Virus record (IMG/VR): IMGVR_UViG_3300030329_004452
Span: 1-39,632 of that record
Length of the DNA stretch: 39,632 nucleotides
Source: a virus
Strand: one strand, 5' to 3'
How positions within the stretch are numbered: position 1 is the first letter of the stretch; each line of letters starts with the position of its first letter. The translations under genes were made by a program, and so were the position numbers. Of the stretch, positions 1 through 33,905 are shown one piece after another. The notes under the pieces are model-generated. The model made no database searches. It saw only the letters and a program-made list of their open reading frames with translations, and was not told the origin of the DNA.

Positions 1-721
1 AAGCGCCACCATAGCCAGCACCAGACTGAACAGACTTAATGCCCGGATTGTAGATTGCGAACGTGGTCTGTCCGTTCGTGTCGGCTATGTTCATGAAGAC
101 ATTTCGCTTGTTGCCAGGCGGGTCTTCGTTCCCGCTCTTAGAAATCATTGCCTCGTTACCTTGGACAGGTGGCGTAACGATGTCCATGTTGCCCCAAACG
201 CAAAGCGTGAAGGCACTCGTAAGGTCAAGTTTCGCTGGGGTTCCAAGGCTTATAGAAGACGTTCCGTCAAAGTAAGGGAAACTCATGGCACCTTGTGAGG
301 TTACACCGCCGCCAGCATAAGCAGGGAGACCGCTCGTATCAAAAGGAACCGGGACGTTCTCAGCGGTGTACATTTCAAACGTCGTTGCCGCCGCTGCCCT
401 CACTGTGAACAGGGTATTATTAACCGCCGTCATCCCGGTCACGCCATAGATCAGGACACGAGTATCGTCTGCTAGGCCATGAGGAGCCGCTGTCGTTACG
501 ACGCCCGGAAGCCCGACCCCGCTCGTGCTAATGCCTGTAATCGTCGCCACGATGGCGGTGCTGTCCGTGCCGTTGGCAGGCGGCGTTATCAGGTCGTACC
601 ATGTAGTGCCGTTATGACTCGTGCTCTCATAACGAGCCACAGCGTCGCCCGTAACATCAGACAAGTACACACTGCGGGAGGACACCTCGGTAGCACCTCG
701 GATGTGTCGCTTCCTTGGCAT
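1..721 (-). CDS. LamG-like tail/adhesin protein, N-terminal 240 aa (cut by window edge)
   Basis: Reading leftward from ATG 721-719, the frame stays open to base 1. The N-terminal third has no recognised domain. A central segment (GLADDTRVLIYGV, about residues 85-125) resembles the FCCH-type beta motif found in phage tail proteins. From about residue 150, YFDGTSSISLGTPAKLDLTS followed by a Trp strand is the start of a laminin-G/concanavalin A-like lectin fold. Such domains bind glycans on virions, so a receptor-binding or decoration role is inferred. The start overlaps the endolysin stop (TGATG), as expected in this tightly packed late operon. The missing C-terminus is probably the fragment at 39529-39632. 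Confidence 0.75.
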   Translation of the reverse strand, partial: MPRKRHIRGATEVSSRSVYLSDVTGDAVARYESTSHNGTTWYDLITPPANGTDSTAIVATITGISTSGVGLPGVVTTAAPHGLADDTRVLIYGVTGMTAVNNTLFTVRAAAATTFEMYTAENVPVPFDTSGLPAYAGGGVTSQGAMSFPYFDGTSSISLGTPAKLDLTSAFTLCVWGNMDIVTPPVQGNEAMISKSGNEDPPGNKRNVFMNIADTNGQTTFAIYNPGIKSVQSGAGYGGA

Positions 722-1113
722 CAGCCTTTCCACCTCGCCGGCCCTGTCGGCCTCATATCATAATGCACAAACGTGCTATATGTCCCTATACCACCGTTCG
801 GGATTTTTCCAGAGGCAGCAAGCTCATGCACCACCGCCGTCAGGCGCTTGAGGTCTTCGGGGTCGCCACTGGAAGGCGCAAGGTCAGCCGCCAAAGCCTG
901 AACGTGCTGGCTGTTCTTTACGCCGCCGACCTTCTTATTATAAGAGGGTGAGCGGTATCCACTATTGACGCGAACCGGCTTTCCAAATGCTTCGCGTATC
1001 CGCTGAAGAGACCACGCAAGATGCCGAAGGCGGTCGGGGTGCGGGCACTCCTCCCCGCTGTTACAAGTAAGCTCTGACTCCGAAAAGTTTGGGGGATAGC
1101 CTGGTCCTGGCAT
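721..1113 (-). CDS. M15-family peptidase, probable endolysin
   Basis: A 130-aa zinc peptidase of the Peptidase_M15 (D-Ala-D-Ala carboxypeptidase-like) family. Visible ligands are SQH70-x6-D77 and H117 in STFVHYDMR; the preceding VNSGYRSPSYNKKVGG is the usual active-site approach of the family. It would cut peptidoglycan cross-links at lysis. I chose ATG 1113 (MPGPGYPPNF) rather than the longer frame because it starts 1 nt after the stop of the giant gene and gives a family-typical length. There is no signal peptide, so access to the wall should need a holin; a candidate lies at 38562-38789 in the same late operon. Confidence 0.9.
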   Translation of the reverse strand: MPGPGYPPNFSESELTCNSGEECPHPDRLRHLAWSLQRIREAFGKPVRVNSGYRSPSYNKKVGGVKNSQHVQALAADLAPSSGDPEDLKRLTAVVHELAASGKIPNGGIGTYSTFVHYDMRPTGPARWKG

Positions 1114-7462: not shown

Positions 7463-9165
7463 TATTCTAATTCCTCAAGAGGGCGGCGCTTCCTTTTCTT
7501 TACGCCGGTTGTCTTACCAGCGTAAGTGTCAACCGCATCCCGAATTGTCTTATGCCGCCCCTCTGCTTCCTCAATGTCGGCGTCTATGCCATCAATAATT
7601 TTCTGCATTCGCACGCGGTTCGACGTAATCACCTCGCCCGCTAAAGTCATTTGGGCACTTTGCTTTTGCTGCTTCAGCAGCCTAACCTCTTGCGCAATGT
7701 CTCTTAGGGCTGAATCCCAACTACCCCGAGCCCTTGCTGCCATCGCGTCGATCGCCCGGCTGTTTCTGCCGCCCTCTTCATCACGGCGCGCCGCTATCAC
7801 AGCTTTTTGGTACGGTGTAAGCGTTTCGAGCTTAAGTTTGTCAAAATCTAGTTTGTCGTAACGGTATTTGTCGTCAGCCAAACGCTTCGCTTTTCTTTCC
7901 GCATTTCTCTTTTTGCGAACCTCAAGCTGTTCTCTCAGGCGCTTTTCCTTCGCTCTTTGATAGGCGGTTTTCCTGCGGCTTTCCTCTTCGTTCATTAGCT
8001 CACGACGGATGTTGCCGGCTCGATTGAAATAAGCACGCGCTGCGTTAATGCGCTGCGCCGCGTCAGCCGCTCCTCGCTTATCATAATCACCGCGGTACAA
8101 ATCCATCAACGAACGAGGTTGACCCCGAGTGTTCTCCGCTTTCTGAAGCTGGCGCACCGCCTGAAGCTCAAGGAGCCGGGATAAATCCAGCCTGTCTTGG
8201 CGCTGCTGTTGATCTAACTCAATGCCGGCACGGCGAGTAAGAAGCTCCTCCACCTCACGAGTTGCGGGCGTAGTCATCGCACCGCTTTCAACTACTTTAC
8301 GCGCAACATTTTCGGTTGTCACCGAAGGCTGTGCGACACCGCCCGCAGCAACGGCCGCAGGTTTTGCCCCAGCCCGCGCCTCTGCTTCAGCTTGAGCCCC
8401 CTCAGAAACAAGCTTCTCACCCAATAAGGCTTGGGCTTCGGCGGTATTAAAATCAACACCAGCCTCTTTAAGCTCACGAAATGCGGCAGCGGTTTCCCGT
8501 CGTGCGTCTGCGGCAACTTGGTCCGAGGTTCGATCATCAGACCCCTCGGCCCCAAAAGGCGCACTAACCAAAGCATCAAATGCTTTCTCGCCTGCTGCCC
8601 GGCCTGTATCGGGGGCCGGGAGAAGCCCGGCCGCTAATGCATTCAGGTAAGCCGGTGATAACATTTCCGGGTTTACGCCAACGAGTGGGTCACTCTCTTC
8701 ACCCGTGAGGTTGCCAGCAAAAGCGGCCTGCGCATCAGGGTCAGCAGGGCCAGCCTGTAAGCGGCCCACATTACGCTCAGTTAAAGGCGTGCCATCATCA
8801 AACACTACATCGGTAGCCATTCGCAGCGGCGGCTCTCCGGCTACATCCGGCAGAGCATCCAAGGGTACACCCACGGGAATCTGGGAAAGAATCGGAACAC
8901 CGGCCGCCTGGACATCCGGGTAAGCACTAAGCGGCAGCCCGACCTCTTCTCGCTCAATAAGCTCAGGGTCTAAGCGGCCGACCATCATGCCCTCGGGCCT
9001 AAAGCCTAGGACTGTTTGCGGGCTGACATCATCCGAGGCAGCCGCCATAAAATCAGAAGGCCCCTGGGCTAACCGAGCAAGCACCTGACGAAGTAAATCG
9101 GTGCGGTCTTCGCCATCAACCTGGCCGGCCAACTCGTCGATGTATTGCATATACGATTCGGCCAT
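7462..9165 (-). CDS. putative internal virion protein, coiled-coil rich (567 aa)
   Basis: No family recognised. The N-terminal half is acidic and loop-rich; the C-terminal half (about residues 290-560) is almost continuous charged helix rich in Arg/Lys/Glu, for example RAKEKRLREQLEVRKKRNAE, ending in a basic tail KKRKRRPLEELE. It sits between the 2115-aa protein and two small Ala/Gly-rich proteins, the position held by ejection (inner core) proteins in podoviruses. Translation is coupled to the next gene by a 1-nt overlap. A structural ejection role is inferred from context only. Confidence 0.55.
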   Translation of the reverse strand: MAESYMQYIDELAGQVDGEDRTDLLRQVLARLAQGPSDFMAAASDDVSPQTVLGFRPEGMMVGRLDPELIEREEVGLPLSAYPDVQAAGVPILSQIPVGVPLDALPDVAGEPPLRMATDVVFDDGTPLTERNVGRLQAGPADPDAQAAFAGNLTGEESDPLVGVNPEMLSPAYLNALAAGLLPAPDTGRAAGEKAFDALVSAPFGAEGSDDRTSDQVAADARRETAAAFRELKEAGVDFNTAEAQALLGEKLVSEGAQAEAEARAGAKPAAVAAGGVAQPSVTTENVARKVVESGAMTTPATREVEELLTRRAGIELDQQQRQDRLDLSRLLELQAVRQLQKAENTRGQPRSLMDLYRGDYDKRGAADAAQRINAARAYFNRAGNIRRELMNEEESRRKTAYQRAKEKRLREQLEVRKKRNAERKAKRLADDKYRYDKLDFDKLKLETLTPYQKAVIAARRDEEGGRNSRAIDAMAARARGSWDSALRDIAQEVRLLKQQKQSAQMTLAGEVITSNRVRMQKIIDGIDADIEEAEGRHKTIRDAVDTYAGKTTGVKKRKRRPLEELE

Positions 9166-9167
9166 AC

Positions 9168-9482
9168 CTACACCGACGAACCTAATAGGCCGCCCACGGG
9201 GGCGGCAAGAGACAAGCTCGGAGGCAACGGAACCGAAACAGGCCCCCCGAGGCCGCCCGATGCAGCCTGGCGCTGGCGGGACAGGATGCGGTTAATGGCC
9301 TCCTTAAGAAGTTTGTCTTCCTCGCTGTCGGCTTGACCTCCACCCATGGGGATGCCTGCCGCTGTCTTTATGGCGGCTGTTGGGAGGTCGATAAGCAAAC
9401 CTTCAGCCATCTTTTTGCCAATGTGCGCGCCGAGGCCCGCCTCGTACTTACTTGGCAAACCCAAGGTTTGGATAATAGCCAT
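9168..9482 (-). CDS. small virion-associated protein, unknown (104 aa)
   Basis: Unrecognised. It has an amphipathic N-terminal half (GLGAHIGKKMAEGLLIDLPT), a charged helix around residues 52-72, and a Gly/Pro/Ala/Ser-rich C-terminus. It lies between two putative internal virion proteins with gaps of 2 and 10 nt, so it is surely translated from the late message. Its composition would suit a small core or membrane-interacting ejection protein; that role is inferred. Confidence 0.55.
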   Translation of the reverse strand: MAIIQTLGLPSKYEAGLGAHIGKKMAEGLLIDLPTAAIKTAAGIPMGGGQADSEEDKLLKEAINRILSRQRQAASGGLGGPVSVPLPPSLSLAAPVGGLLGSSV

Positions 9483-9492
9483 TATGTAACTC

Positions 9493-10155
9493 CTAAGTTA
9501 AAATCTTACCAGTCCCTTGGTAAACGCCAATTTCATTAAGATACATTTGCCGCTCGGGGCTTCCGGGCGGATACCGGTTTGCTTGTATCCTATAGTAATT
9601 AACCAACTCCGATGCCGTCGAAAACATAGTTTTGCGTTGCTGGATGTCGTCAGCAATAGCCTGAAACCTTGCGGCCCCAGCCGCTGCGTCGCGACGCGCA
9701 TAGTCTAGCTCGCCCACCGCCTTGCGCTCTAACAACTGCCCGACATCCATTGCTGTCTGGGCACGAAACTGGTTGGCTGCCTGGCTCGCCTGAAGGGCGG
9801 CCTGGCGCGCTGATGCTTGCGCCCCGCCGCCAGCCAAAAGACCTTGAGCACCAGACCCAGCAAGCGTAGCGGCTCCGGGTGACGCCATGCCCCCCATCAT
9901 TTGCCTGATAGCCTGCTGCCCGAAATCCCGCCTCGCCTGTATGGCTTTATCGTAGGCTTGATTTACACCAGCCCGGCCCCGGTCAAGCCCCTCAACGAGG
10001 CTTTGGGCTGTCCTGTTTATTGGGGCTTGAGTTTCAGGGGTTGATGTTTGGTCTGCAACGGATTCACCGGTATCACCAAGCCCCCAAGGCTTTAGAAAGG
10101 GTGTATACCAAGCCTCGCCTGGGTTTCTGGGTTTACCAAAAGGTTTTTTCGCCAT
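9493..10155 (-). CDS. putative internal virion protein, Ala/Gln-rich (220 aa)
   Basis: The N-terminus is Lys/Pro-rich (MAKKPFGKPRNPGEAWY). From about residue 45 to 195 it is a long Ala/Gln/Arg helix interrupted by a Gly/Ala segment (GGMASPGAATLAGSGAQGLL). This layout, about 200 aa with an Ala-rich coiled coil just before larger core proteins, resembles T7 gp14-type ejection proteins, but no signature residues prove it. Gaps to the neighbouring genes are 10 nt on each side. Confidence 0.55.
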   Translation of the reverse strand: MAKKPFGKPRNPGEAWYTPFLKPWGLGDTGESVADQTSTPETQAPINRTAQSLVEGLDRGRAGVNQAYDKAIQARRDFGQQAIRQMMGGMASPGAATLAGSGAQGLLAGGGAQASARQAALQASQAANQFRAQTAMDVGQLLERKAVGELDYARRDAAAGAARFQAIADDIQQRKTMFSTASELVNYYRIQANRYPPGSPERQMYLNEIGVYQGTGKILT

Positions 10156-26582: not shown

Positions 26583-26804
26583 ATGTTTACTATCCAAGAA
26601 CTCGAATTGATTTGGATCAAGCTCATCGCGGCATCGGGCAGCATGGAAAAGCAAGCTGCGGAATGTCGCGCCTATGGTCTCGACGGAAACGCCGCCGCCA
26701 TCACTAAGGGCATTGCTGAGGTCGTCGCCCTTACCGCTAAGGTCGAAGCTGCAATCGAGGCGAACACGAACCCCTGCAACCCCTACCGCCACACCTACTC
26801 CTAA
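26583..26804 (+). CDS. small early protein, unknown (73 aa)
   Basis: First gene of the early operon. ATG 26583 is chosen over the longer frame because the conserved leader motif ends just before it. The protein is helical (MFTIQELELIWIKLIAASGS, ITKGIAEVVALTAKVEAAIE), with no recognised domain. Its TAA stop is followed directly by the first hammerhead ribozyme, so its message is predicted to end with a 2',3'-cyclic phosphate at 26827. Confidence 0.7.
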   Translation: MFTIQELELIWIKLIAASGSMEKQAAECRAYGLDGNAAAITKGIAEVVALTAKVEAAIEANTNPCNPYRHTYS

Positions 26805-26860
26805 GGCGAAACGCCCTACGGGGCGTCCAGGGACTAACGGGCAACCCCTGCTGATGAGCC
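26805..26860 (+). ncRNA. type II hammerhead ribozyme, copy 1
   Basis: Stem II 5' strand GGC 26805-26807; G12-A13-A14 26808-26810. Stem III A26811-C26816 pairs with G26821-U26826, with a UNCG-type loop UACG. C17 is 26827 and cleavage is predicted after it. Stem I CAGGG 26828-26832 pairs with CCCUG 26846-26850, with a 13-nt loop. Core CUGAUGA 26851-26857; stem II 3' strand GCC 26858-26860. All invariant core positions are present. It starts immediately after the stop codon of the preceding gene. Confidence 0.9.
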
Positions 26861-26882
26861 AGCCCACAAACGCCGCAAGGCA

Positions 26883-26892
26883 GAAACGAGAC
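26883..26892 (+). repeat. leader motif copy 2, GAAACGAGAC
   Basis: Here the motif lacks AGGA (it reads GGCAGAAACGAGAC) yet the AACGAGAC part is kept. A GCC-GCAA-GGC mini-hairpin directly precedes it. ATG 26898 follows 5 nt later. Confidence 0.7.
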
Positions 26893-26897
26893 AAACC

Positions 26898-27176
26898 ATG
26901 TTCCAGGCAATCACTACAAAATACCTCGCAGCCACCGAGCACCGAGGCGAGCGCGTCAAAGCGACAGCGCAAGCGGGATCGGTCACCCTTCCGTGGGATT
27001 ATGGTTTGAGCACCGCCGAAAACCACGAGGCAGCCGCTACAGCCCTGGCACAATCCGAGGGCAAAGACTGGTTGCTGAAGGGCCAGGCGATGTTTGCTGC
27101 TAACGGTCGACGCCTGGAGGGCGGCGGTCTTCCCAACGGGACCGGGTACGCCTGGGTTTTAGTCAACCAACGCTAA
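26898..27176 (+). CDS. small early protein, unknown (92 aa)
   Basis: It starts MFQAITTKYLAATEHRGERV. I recall similar short proteins being widespread in phage and plasmid accessory regions, without known function. A beta-rich N-terminal half with TAQAGSVTLPWDYGLS is followed by a helical segment and GTGYAWVLVNQR. It lies between hammerheads 1 and 2, so a single-gene mRNA is predicted whose 5' end is 26828, giving a 70-nt leader. Confidence 0.75.
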   Translation: MFQAITTKYLAATEHRGERVKATAQAGSVTLPWDYGLSTAENHEAAATALAQSEGKDWLLKGQAMFAANGRRLEGGGLPNGTGYAWVLVNQR

Positions 27177-27177
27177 A

Positions 27178-27233
27178 GGCGAAACGCCCGCAAGGGCGTC
27201 TAGGGACCAACGGGCAACCCCTACTGATGAGCC
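27178..27233 (+). ncRNA. type II hammerhead ribozyme, copy 2
   Basis: Stem II GGC 27178-27180 with GCC 27231-27233; GAA 27181-27183. Stem III A27184-C27189 pairs with G27194-U27199 around a GNRA loop GCAA. C17 is 27200 and cleavage is predicted after it. Stem I UAGGG 27201-27205 pairs with CCCUA 27219-27223; compared with copy 1 the first pair changes from C-G to U-A, keeping pairing. Core CUGAUGA 27224-27230. It begins 1 nt after the preceding stop codon. Confidence 0.9.
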
Positions 27234-27257
27234 AGCCCATAACGCCGCAAGGCAGAA

Positions 27258-27268
27258 GGAAACGAGAC
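27258..27268 (+). repeat. leader motif copy 3, GGAAACGAGAC
   Basis: Preceded by the GCC-GCAA-GGC mini-hairpin (27244-27253); ATG 27270 follows 1 nt later. Confidence 0.75.
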
Positions 27269-27269
27269 C

Positions 27270-27569
27270 ATGAGCATTTGCACGACCCTACCCCGATTTG
27301 AATTTGAGTATGAAACCGGAAAACTTAAGGCATATACATCGCTCGGTTCCTACCCGCTTTTATATCTCGACAAGTCAAACAGCGTCCTTTGTCCGTGTTG
27401 CGCAAATGAGGCGGAAAACGCGTTCACTGAGGCAGAGGCCGAAGACCCCGGGCAAAACGGCTTCTTGGCGGATGGTTTGCCCGTTTCTGCCCACGTCAAT
27501 TATGAGGGCGACACCTACTGCGACGAATGCAGCAAACGCATCGAGTCAGCATACGGCGAAAACGATTAA
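27270..27569 (+). CDS. small zinc-ribbon-like early protein (99 aa)
   Basis: CPCC near residue 42 and CDEC near residue 86 make a two-knuckle four-Cys site; the segment between is strongly acidic. No family recognised. An acidic zinc protein in an early operon could be a DNA mimic or host-factor binder, but nothing proves this. Hammerhead 3 starts directly after its stop codon. Confidence 0.7.
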   Translation: MSICTTLPRFEFEYETGKLKAYTSLGSYPLLYLDKSNSVLCPCCANEAENAFTEAEAEDPGQNGFLADGLPVSAHVNYEGDTYCDECSKRIESAYGEND

Positions 27570-27625
27570 GACGAAACGCCCGCAAGGGCGTCGCGGTGGG
27601 GTGGTTCCCATCGCCTGACGATGTC
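27570..27625 (+). ncRNA. type II hammerhead ribozyme, copy 3
   Basis: Stem II GAC 27570-27572 pairs with GUC 27623-27625 (other copies have GGC/GCC, a covariation), with U27622 bulged. GAA 27573-27575. Stem III A27576-C27581 pairs with G27586-U27591, loop GCAA. C17 is 27592 and cleavage is predicted after it. Stem I GCGGUGGG 27593-27600 pairs with CCCAUCGC 27607-27614 (one G-U), loop GUGGUU. Core CUGACGA 27615-27621, with C at the variable position 7. Confidence 0.87.
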
Positions 27626-27638
27626 AGCCAACATGAAA

Positions 27639-27649
27639 GGAAACGAGAC
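27639..27649 (+). repeat. leader motif copy 4, GGAAACGAGAC
   Basis: Ends 1 nt before ATG 27651. No mini-hairpin precedes this copy; instead the AAAGG ribosome site is stronger. Confidence 0.75.
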
Positions 27650-27650
27650 G

Positions 27651-28616
27651 ATGACCAAAAAAACGAGACGCGATTTTATCAACGACGAAGTGGCAAAGGT
27701 CGCGGGCGACATGACCAGCCTGATGCGTGAGGGTGTCGCCCCTTGGCAGCGCGGCTTCATGCCTTCCCTGGGAAGCGACGGCGAACCGGTCAGCATTTTC
27801 GGGCGGCGGTATAGCGGGCTAAATGCAATGGTTTTGACCATGCACGCCACGGCGAACCGTTATGACCATAACGTGTGGGGCACCTATGGATCCCTCAAAA
27901 AGAAGGGCTACCGAGTGAACCAAAAGAGCCATGCTCGCATCCTTTGTTGGTGGAAAACCCAACTCAAAGACGAAGACGGCGAAATCGTTCTAGACGATAA
28001 CGGCGAGCCCCGCACCTACATGGCAGCAAAAGCCGTCGCGGTGTTCAATGTAGCCCAGACCGTCGAGGGTGCCGACTACAAGCCCAGCGAAAAGGCTACC
28101 CCGTTCGCCCCGCTGGTCGAGTCGATCGACGATGCCGGGGAATTTGCTTTGGCTGTTCTCAAGGGCTCCAAGGTCAAAACCGAGTGGAAGCCCTGCCCAA
28201 GCCCCTGCTACATCCCCGCTTTTGACGTGGTGCAGATGCCCCCCGTGGCTAGTTGGCTAAGTGCTGACCGCATGGCGAAAACCCTGATGCACGAGCTTGC
28301 TCATGCCACAGGGGCAAAACACCGCCTCAGCCGCCCCGGCATCACAAACTTTGATGCCTTTGGGTCGCATCAATACGCCCTTGAGGAGTTGGTTGCCGAG
28401 ATGACCGCGGCCAGCCTTTGCCGGCTCGGCGGTATCGCCACGCAAGAGACCGATGAAAACAGCGCCGCGTACCTTGCCCATTGGGCTGAAAAACTCGACG
28501 CCAACCCCAGCCTTTGGCTGACCGTTGCAAAGCAAGCCGAAGCCGCCGCTCACTGGTTAGTTGATGCCGCTGAGGTCAGCCTGAGCGCTCTGGAGACCAT
28601 CGCAGCGAACCGATAA
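27651..28616 (+). CDS. ArdC-like antirestriction protein (321 aa)
   Basis: N-terminal ArdC-type ssDNA-binding domain (about residues 1-130, with GVAPWQRGFMPSLG, FGRRYSGLNAMVL and WGTYGSLKKKGYRV). The C-terminal zincin-like domain has H214-E-L-A-H218, then ATGAKHRL and, later, YALEELVAEMTAASLC with the acidic third ligand region. Family knowledge: ArdC proteins bind ssDNA and protect incoming DNA from host restriction. ATG 27651 follows the leader motif directly. It is the largest of the hammerhead-flanked genes and is expected early in infection. Confidence 0.85.
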   Translation: MTKKTRRDFINDEVAKVAGDMTSLMREGVAPWQRGFMPSLGSDGEPVSIFGRRYSGLNAMVLTMHATANRYDHNVWGTYGSLKKKGYRVNQKSHARILCWWKTQLKDEDGEIVLDDNGEPRTYMAAKAVAVFNVAQTVEGADYKPSEKATPFAPLVESIDDAGEFALAVLKGSKVKTEWKPCPSPCYIPAFDVVQMPPVASWLSADRMAKTLMHELAHATGAKHRLSRPGITNFDAFGSHQYALEELVAEMTAASLCRLGGIATQETDENSAAYLAHWAEKLDANPSLWLTVAKQAEAAAHWLVDAAEVSLSALETIAANR

Positions 28617-28672
28617 GGCGAAACCCCCGCCAGGGGGTCGCAGCGGGGTGGTACCCGTTGCCTGATGATGCC
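28617..28672 (+). ncRNA. type II hammerhead ribozyme, copy 4
   Basis: Stem II GGC 28617-28619 with GCC 28670-28672, U28669 bulged as in copy 3. GAA 28620-28622. Stem III A28623-C28628 pairs with G28633-U28638, loop GCCA; relative to copies 1-3 a G-C pair is replaced by C-G. C17 is 28639 and cleavage is predicted after it. Stem I GCAGCGGG 28640-28647 pairs with CCCGUUGC 28654-28661 (one G-U), loop GUGGUA. Core CUGAUGA 28662-28668. Confidence 0.9.
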
Positions 28673-28706
28673 AGCCACATCAGTTATATAATAAAGCCGC
28701 AAGGCA

Positions 28707-28722: not shown

Positions 28723-28935
28723 ATGGCCTACACCCAAACCTACAGCAATGAGCGTTTCGATAAGGAGCAGGTAGCCGCCGCCCTCATGAGTGCCACCCCC
28801 GGCTATCAGATGGTGCACATCGAAGCGGTCGAGCGTGTGATCGAGCAAGGCACCGGGCCAATGCCCAGCCCTAAGCATTTAGCAAAGCGCGCGGCCTTAT
28901 CACTAGGGCTTGACCCTCAAACCGTGGGCCTGTAG
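28723..28935 (+). CDS. small early protein, unknown (70 aa)
   Basis: Helical, MAYTQTYSNERFDKEQVAAA, with a C-terminal KHLAKRAALSLGLDPQTVGL. No recognised domain. It lies downstream of hammerhead 4 with an 83-nt predicted leader, the longest of the four. The gap to the next gene is short and carries only a leader motif, so these two genes should stay on one processed mRNA. Confidence 0.7.
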   Translation: MAYTQTYSNERFDKEQVAAALMSATPGYQMVHIEAVERVIEQGTGPMPSPKHLAKRAALSLGLDPQTVGL

Positions 28936-29377: not shown

Positions 29378-29432
29378 TATCTACGGGCCCGCTGGTGCCC
29401 TAAACCAGCCCAGCCGAATCGCAGGATAGGCT
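29378..29432 (+). ncRNA. paired-hairpin RNA element A (post-stop)
   Basis: Begins right after the TAG stop. Hairpin 1: GCUGGU 29391-29396 with ACCAGC 29404-29409, loop GCCCUAA. Hairpin 2: AGCC 29412-29415 with GGCU 29429-29432. The 5' flank UCUACGGGYCC and the 2-nt spacer CC are shared with the element at 30134. Not a hammerhead: no CUGANGA and no GAAA in the right order. Confidence 0.55.
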
Positions 29433-29442
29433 CTGCAACAAT

Positions 29443-30133: not shown

Positions 30134-30187
30134 CCTCTACGGGTCCGCTGGCACCCTAAGCCAGCCCAGCCTTTTACGGGGTAGGCT
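30134..30187 (+). ncRNA. paired-hairpin RNA element B (post-stop)
   Basis: Starts directly after the TAA stop. Hairpin 1: GCUGGC 30147-30152 with GCCAGC 30160-30165, loop ACCCUAA; the closing pair is C-G here and U-A in element A, a covariation. Hairpin 2: AGCC 30168-30171 with GGCU 30184-30187, 12-nt loop. Confidence 0.55.
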
Positions 30188-30206
30188 CCCATCAAGCCGC
30201 AAGGCA

Positions 30207-32739: not shown

Positions 32740-33243
32740 ATGGGAAAGATTAAGAGCATAATGATGGAGGCGCATGGTCGAGGGATCGACCACAAGCGTA
32801 TGTCGTTGGATGACCTGCAAAAGGTTTTAGGCATCCCCGAAAACACCACGGAGCAACCCCGTGCAGTCGGTTACTCTGAACCGGTTCGGTTCTATCACCC
32901 GGTGCTGGAGCCGCGCCCTATCCAAACGGTCGCACCTGATTATCCTAAGGGCCTGAATCTTTCGGAGCGATTCAAGGTGTACCACCAGCGCAACCCTTTG
33001 GTTTATGTTGGACTGAAGCGCCTGGCGCTGGACCTGAAGAGGCGAGGGCGTAACCACTACGGCATCAAAGGATTGTTTGAGGTGCTGAGGTGGGAGCACG
33101 CACGCTTAAGCGGTGACGCGGAGCCCCTGAAACTGAACAACGCTTTCACTGCCAGCTATGCGCGGTTGCTCATGCAGCAAGAGCCTGAGTTGCAAGGGTT
33201 CTTTCGCTTGCGGGTCTCGGCGGCCGAGCGGGGGAAGGCGTGA
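32740..33243 (+). CDS. conserved phage protein, unknown function (167 aa)
   Basis: The C-terminal block (about 73-160) LSERFKVYHQRNPLVYVGLK, GIKGLFEVLRWEHARLSG, LNNAFTASYARLLMQQEPEL, QGFFRLR is a domain I recall from many phage genomes near replication genes. It is helical with conserved Asn-Pro, Arg-Trp and Asn, and of unknown function. The N-terminal 70 residues are variable. The leader is AAGAAGGAGCGAGACTA, a diverged leader motif with a better Shine-Dalgarno. It is the first gene after the large structured RNA. Confidence 0.75.
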   Translation: MGKIKSIMMEAHGRGIDHKRMSLDDLQKVLGIPENTTEQPRAVGYSEPVRFYHPVLEPRPIQTVAPDYPKGLNLSERFKVYHQRNPLVYVGLKRLALDLKRRGRNHYGIKGLFEVLRWEHARLSGDAEPLKLNNAFTASYARLLMQQEPELQGFFRLRVSAAERGKA

Positions 33244-33245
33244 AC

Positions 33246-33905
33246 ATGAGCGTGCGGCAGATACCTCACGACGTGGCGCGCCCGTTTGTTTGTCGCTGGC
33301 ATTACAGCGGTATTTACCCGAGCGCAAAAAACATCAGCTTTGGTTGCTTTGCCCACTATAACTCAACGAGCAAGCAACAGGATTTATTTGATGGAAGCCT
33401 GTACGCCGTGGCTACCTATGGGGCGGGTGTGAACCCACACCAAGGGCGTTTCCTGAGCAACCTACTTTCGTGTGCTATTCATAATAAAGACGTAATCGAG
33501 CTTAGGCGCTTATGCCGTGTTGAGCCTATTATTGAGGGCGTAAATCTAACTTGGTTTATTGCTCGCTGTCACCAGCATATAAAACGGTACGGGTACAAGC
33601 TCGTCGTTTCGTTTAGTGATCCTGCTTATGGTCACTCTGGTGGTATCTATAAAGCCGCCAACTTTACGCACGCAGGTCACACGAATTCGGAATGGCACGT
33701 TGTTGATAAGGACGGCAAGCAACGCCACCGCAGAGTAGCTTATCGGCACGCCAAAGCACACGGCATTTCGATTGGTGAGGCGAGGGAGCGGTTAGGCTTG
33801 AAGCGCATCCGGACGGTGCCAAAAGACCGTTGGCTCATCGCTTTAGATCGAAAGACCAGAAAACATTTAACTCAATTCTCAGTAGCAAGAAAGGCAACTG
33901 CATGA
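33246..33905 (+). CDS. Mom-like DNA-modification protein, GNAT-related (219 aa)
   Basis: Resembles the Mu Mom family: RWHYSGIYP near the N-terminus, ELRRLCRVEP in the middle, then FIARCHQHIKRYGYKLVVSF followed by SDPAYGHSGGIYKAANFTHA. These are the core strands and the cofactor-binding-like loop of Mom/GNAT folds. Family knowledge: Mom adds a small group to adenine in phage DNA and blocks restriction. ATG 33246 has GAAGG 7 nt upstream; GTG 33240, overlapping the upstream stop, is an alternative. With the ArdC-like protein it gives two independent restriction countermeasures. Confidence 0.7.
   Translation: MSVRQIPHDVARPFVCRWHYSGIYPSAKNISFGCFAHYNSTSKQQDLFDGSLYAVATYGAGVNPHQGRFLSNLLSCAIHNKDVIELRRLCRVEPIIEGVNLTWFIARCHQHIKRYGYKLVVSFSDPAYGHSGGIYKAANFTHAGHTNSEWHVVDKDGKQRHRRVAYRHAKAHGISIGEARERLGLKRIRTVPKDRWLIALDRKTRKHLTQFSVARKATA

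Follow-up and report, generated by a model that had tools for sequence, protein, structure and literature searches.

Type II hammerhead ribozymes in series at the start of a phage operon, with related arrays in Streptomyces phages and a second pseudoknotted RNA element

Introduction

Clusters of hammerhead ribozymes around single genes have been described in prophages (Perreault et al., 2011; PMC3088659). Three tandem sets were cleaved in vitro, the Agrobacterium tumefaciens set, which lies around the anti-restriction gene ardA, was cleaved in E. coli, and the 5' end of a halovirus transcript is at most 3 nt from the cleavage site of a hammerhead variant (PMC3088659). Type II hammerheads typically have a pseudoknot that joins loop I to the 3' tail (PMC3088659). 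The same paper had already suggested the cutting of long phage transcripts into mRNAs of gene length (PMC3088659), so that the processing idea put forward in an earlier note on the DNA considered here is the published one, and the array that it concerned is not a new kind. The role of hammerheads in phages has been described as open (PMC6155905).

The present array differs from the prophage clusters of Clostridium scindens, Azorhizobium caulinodans and A. tumefaciens, in which several hammerheads likewise lie around single genes, in being from a different phage and in having its four copies strictly one per gene, at the start of an early operon. Where the A. tumefaciens set flanks ardA, copies 3 and 4 enclose a gene for an ArdC-like protein, a different anti-restriction protein. 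With the type II hammerheads of Rfam family RF02276 the four copies share the core, the three-stem topology, the loop I/3'-tail pseudoknot and the bacterial or phage setting; copies 1 and 2 fall slightly under the family's cut-off, and copies 3 and 4 have an extra U. In the Streptomyces phages Jevington, VieEnRose, Paedore, Celia and Spernnie, the same ribozyme type occupies the same stop-to-start slot, mostly one per gap, in arrays that are longer (9-14 copies) and more constant in leader length.

New here are these Streptomyces arrays, a rule of downstream spacing, and a second structured RNA, element X; the motif and its clustering were already known. The earlier note had thought that a one-per-gene array in a phage operon appears "unusual," a view that is not supported, given prophage clusters published in 2011 (PMC3088659) and 9-14 copies in cultured Streptomyces phages.

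Results and discussion

The early operon and its ribozymes

The window is the whole stretch of DNA that was analyzed, the 39,632-base virus record IMGVR_UViG_3300030329_004452. Gene calls and family matches place head and packaging genes on the minus strand and, from about 26.5 kb, a DNA-metabolism operon on the plus strand, with products that include an exonuclease, a single-strand binding protein, a RusA-like resolvase, a DnaC-like loader and a Mom-like protein. The source phage is an unclassified tailed phage. The gene for the Mom-like DNA modification protein (33240-33905) is in the same operon as the hammerheads. Four ribozyme segments, all in one transcript direction, occupy the gaps among the first five operon genes:

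26583-26804, plus strand: gene 1, ORF of 73 aa, function unknown
26805-26862, plus strand: type II hammerhead copy 1, following gene 1; cut predicted at 26827/26828; pseudoknot GGGC/GCCC
26898-27176, plus strand: gene 2, 92 aa, matching phrog_3199 (unknown function; E 1.3e-18)
27178-27235, plus strand: type II hammerhead copy 2, following gene 2; cut predicted at 27200/27201; pseudoknot GGGC/GCCC
27270-27569, plus strand: gene 3, 99 aa, with a weak match to phrog_18452 (annotated DNA ligase; E 3.1e-9)
27570-27630, plus strand: type II hammerhead copy 3, following gene 3; cut predicted at 27592/27593; pseudoknot UGGU/GCCA
27651-28616, plus strand: gene 4, 321 aa, ArdC-like anti-restriction protein with ArdcN and zincin domains (PF08401, PF18818)
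28617-28677, plus strand: type II hammerhead copy 4, following gene 4; cut predicted at 28639/28640; pseudoknot GUGGU/GCCAC
28723-28935, plus strand: gene 5, ORF of 70 aa, 3' of hammerhead copy 4, function unknown

Searches of PHROG and Pfam gave no match for gene 1 and no family match for gene 5; gene 4 matches phrog_7245 in PHROG (E 1.3e-53).

Judged on sequence and predicted structure, the identification of the four segments as type II hammerhead ribozymes is well supported. RF02276, whose gathering cut-off is 37 bits, matches copy 3 with 49.9 bits (27569-27633; E 1.8e-7 against all of Rfam) and copy 4 with 49.6 bits (28616-28680; E 2.2e-7 against all of Rfam), and matches copy 2 (36.7 bits, 27177-27241) and copy 1 (36.1 bits, 26804-26868) slightly under the cut-off in this search, which the earlier note had suggested. 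When this model is searched alone on the window, E-values range from 4e-11 to 1.7e-7, with copies 1 and 2 at about 1e-7. A descriptor made up of GAAA, NUH, CUGANGA and the three stems has four matches in the window, exactly the four copies, and nine over 400 dinucleotide-preserving shuffles, or 0.02 expected per window. Together, the Rfam E-values and the shuffles rule out a chance origin.

Type II identity, as the earlier note had it, is thus borne out by the family matches, the descriptor and the shuffles, and most of its detailed reading stands as well. Stem II begins at 26805, 27178, 27570 and 28617, which is 0, 1, 0, and 0 nt past TAA stop codons; the invariant core (GAAA, NUH at the cleavage site, CUGANGA) is present in all four copies; and the covariation is real, with stem II GGC/GCC versus GAC/GUC and the third pair of stem III G-C versus C-G. 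The leaders had been given as 70, 70, 59 and 84 nt, of which the first is correct; the actual lengths are 70, 69, 58, and 83. Two features had been missed: the loop I/3'-tail pseudoknot, of 4-5 bp in all four copies, and, in copies 3 and 4, an extra, unpaired U that separates A9 from stem II. The Rfam alignments and the descriptor agree on loop-closed stems I and III and an open stem II.

Among the 203 distinct type II copies that were collected, 69 have the extra U, which is therefore not a defect of copies 3 and 4. In 113 of the same 203, loop I and the tail can form 4 bp or more; with tails swapped between copies, the mean is 59 and the maximum 71. Stem I is weak (5 bp) in copies 1 and 2, and the thermodynamic fold of copy 3 favors a competing hairpin over stem II.

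Arrays in Streptomyces phages and the spacing of ribozymes

With a single Jevington hammerhead as query, related copies were found in 55 Streptomyces phage records. Type II hammerheads number 14 in Jevington and nine in VieEnRose; the descriptor, applied to early regions, found 13 copies in Paedore, 10 in Celia and nine in Spernnie, and other viral contigs have up to 13 each. A literature search turned up no paper that deals with the hammerheads of Streptomyces phages. The arrays of these phages (L005, L132-L135, and the 55 records) are unannotated and lie in early regions, some of the hammerheads being overlain by annotated hypothetical proteins, and several of the phages are classed in the Arquatrovirinae. 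An OCR-like anti-restriction gene is included in the Jevington array. Three further contigs (L100, L117, and L123) have type II arrays of 3-5 copies, often with a 4-bp stem II and mostly without loop I-tail pairing.

Distances on both sides of the ribozyme were measured for 57 copies, from the window phage and the five named Streptomyces phages. The predicted cleavage site is 50-63 nt from the next start codon in 43 of the 57 (median 57), figures that depend on annotated start codons and that do not count independent events, since the Streptomyces copies are mutually related. On the other side, the gap between the upstream stop codon and the ribozyme in the same set runs from 0 to 255 nt (median 11). 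Spacing that is tight downstream and variable upstream suggests that ribozyme, ribosome-binding site and start codon are one unit, a leader module serving the downstream gene.

Relatives of the window phage have fewer copies or none. The contig L007/L018, with a 78% identical ArdC-like protein, has two hammerheads at matching operon positions; L148 has one, after its gene 1, at the same operon position; and L143/G056, a relative of full length whose terminase is 70% identical, has none. The presence of copies in the first two and their absence from the third indicate that the array was gained or lost within the phage group. Because L143/G056 lacks hammerheads, the array is dispensable in this lineage, and it can be ruled out as a fixed trait of the group.

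Possible roles of the array

Leader insulation is the preferred reading, by analogy with RiboJ, a synthetic-biology insulator in which a hammerhead in the 5' leader standardizes the 5' end of each gene. RiboJ was engineered from a plant satellite RNA and is used singly, whereas the hammerheads of the window are natural, of type II, and in series. Each of them would fold while the polycistronic transcript emerges, and cut after C17. The upstream mRNA would then end just past its stop codon, its terminal stem III hairpin carrying a 2',3'-cyclic phosphate, and the downstream mRNA would have a 5'-OH and a short leader that opens with the stem I hairpin: in the type II arrangement hairpins flank the cut, and sequence reading and predicted folds place one on either side of it here. 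Hairpin ends should slow exonucleases and 5'-end-dependent decay. A long transcript would in this way give rise to single-gene mRNAs with standard leaders, insulated from the gene upstream, and genes so equipped could be exchanged in a mosaic region with their expression undisturbed. Self-cleavage is established for other members of the class, and cleavage in the window phage, stabilized ends and insulation are what we infer by analogy with them; on balance, the array probably does turn a polycistronic early mRNA into single-gene mRNAs with insulated standard leaders. The Streptomyces arrays, with their constant distance from cleavage site to start codon, make this processing and insulation idea testable with laboratory phages.

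Cleavage could also have been imagined to unmask the ribosome-binding site. The predicted accessibility of the ribosome-binding region is nearly equal before and after the cut, however, so that cleavage is no obvious on-switch for translation, and unmasking was rejected on the strength of this prediction.

Other explanations have been weighed. The ribozymes may be passengers, whether passive or selfish, or favored sites of recombination in a mosaic region, retained as repeats and not for cleavage. This would fit their location at gene borders in a variable region, their absence from some relatives, and the varying gene contents of hammerhead clusters (PMC3088659), but would not account for a catalytic core and three stems conserved despite wide change in helix sequence, or for the tight distance to the downstream start codon; moreover, copies inside one phage are too divergent for efficient homology, and the explanation is an unlikely one. 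Regulated switching seems very unlikely. In this model the ribozymes would cleave only if the adjoining stop codon is free of a terminating ribosome, or upon binding a ligand; those of the window, beginning 0-1 nt past the stop, do lie inside the footprint of a terminating ribosome, but stop codon and ribozyme are often more than 15 nt apart in the arrays of the Streptomyces phages, no ligand-binding domain is seen, and the predicted accessibility of the ribosome site does not depend on cleavage. Also very unlikely is circularization of the released gene-length RNAs into stable circular mRNAs, whether the ribozyme runs in reverse as a ligase or the host provides one of RtcB type. By established chemistry each piece would bear a 5'-OH and a 2',3'-cyclic phosphate, and its ends complement each other as the two halves of a hybrid hammerhead, the 5' end having stem I and CUGANGA and the 3' end GAAA and stem III, but the ends of one piece would be held together by only the 3-bp stem II, and spliced or circular products were looked for by Perreault et al. 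and none found (PMC3088659).

Element X

The series of structured elements does not stop with the fourth hammerhead: past gene 4, element X fills the slot after genes 6 and 7. It was first met as a 36-nt repeat (family D12), not a hammerhead, and has seven copies over five phage contigs, with further ones in L129, L143, and L165 coming from pattern scans and the reading of relatives:

29385-29436, plus strand, window: copy 1, following gene 6; an H-type pseudoknot, GGGC/GCCC; repeat D12; training member of model R2
30141-30187, plus strand, window: copy 2, after gene 7; pseudoknot GGGU/ACCC, with compensatory changes; repeat D12; training member of model R2
8968-9023 and 10096-10152, L129: two copies
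879-935, minus strand, L143: one copy
2-54, minus strand, L165: one copy
9131-9186, minus strand, L177: one copy

Covariance model R2 was built from five copies; a plain MAFFT alignment yielded model R1, poor in structure, which was discarded. A sixth copy, outside the training set, was matched by R2 at L129 8968-9023 (E 1.3e-10), and the seventh, in L177, came from a covariance-model search (E 2.3e-8). Some pattern scans of other sequence gave chance matches only, and a model search did not find the element in the Streptomyces hammerhead arrays.

All seven copies can form a 4-bp pseudoknot stem, in the versions GGGC/GCCC, GGGU/ACCC, and CGGC/GCCG, which interlocks with a hairpin that varies by paired changes; UAA and CCAGCC are invariant. 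As the sequence is read, there is a second hairpin whose loop GGC faces the conserved AGCC, making a double pseudoknot. Each copy begins within about 10 nt of a stop codon. The two in L129 follow two successive genes, and that in L177 lies between two genes.

What kind of RNA might this be? Compared with all Rfam families up to E 10, element X gave only unrelated chance matches nearby, and it is rejected on this basis as a hammerhead, twister, pistol, or HDV-like ribozyme; its strand order does not seem to fit twister or HDV folds. A stop-codon readthrough pseudoknot was considered and set aside: genes 6 and 7 share a frame with no stop between them, but gene 8 is out of frame with gene 7 and a stop follows 16 codons past gene 7, so that readthrough is not a general rule for the element. 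Its occurrence in the ribozyme slot, with ribozyme-like size and complexity, makes a cleaving or processing role worth testing. On sequence evidence, and as a tentative and doubtful proposal, element X might belong to a new class of small RNAs by which phages process their polycistronic mRNA, possibly a new class of self-cleaving ribozyme. If so, some phages would build one-per-gene arrays from element X without hammerheads; L129/G049 has two consecutive copies. Element X shows that the operon slot of the hammerhead can hold an undescribed pseudoknotted RNA. The searching of such slots has revealed other ribozyme classes (PMC10085705).

Other structures in the operon

Short hairpins of one direct repeat family (D4) precede the ribosome-binding regions of genes 2, 3, 5, and 8, the first of them between ribozyme and start codon:

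26872-26881, plus strand: leader hairpin GCC-GCAA-GGC
27244-27253, 28696-28705 and 30196-30205: further GCC-GCAA-GGC hairpins

The leader hairpin is kept in the relatives L018 and L148, where its GNRA-type loop is GAAA or GAGA. A long GC-rich hairpin lies before ardC in L018 (1420-1460, minus strand), where the window phage has hammerhead copy 3.
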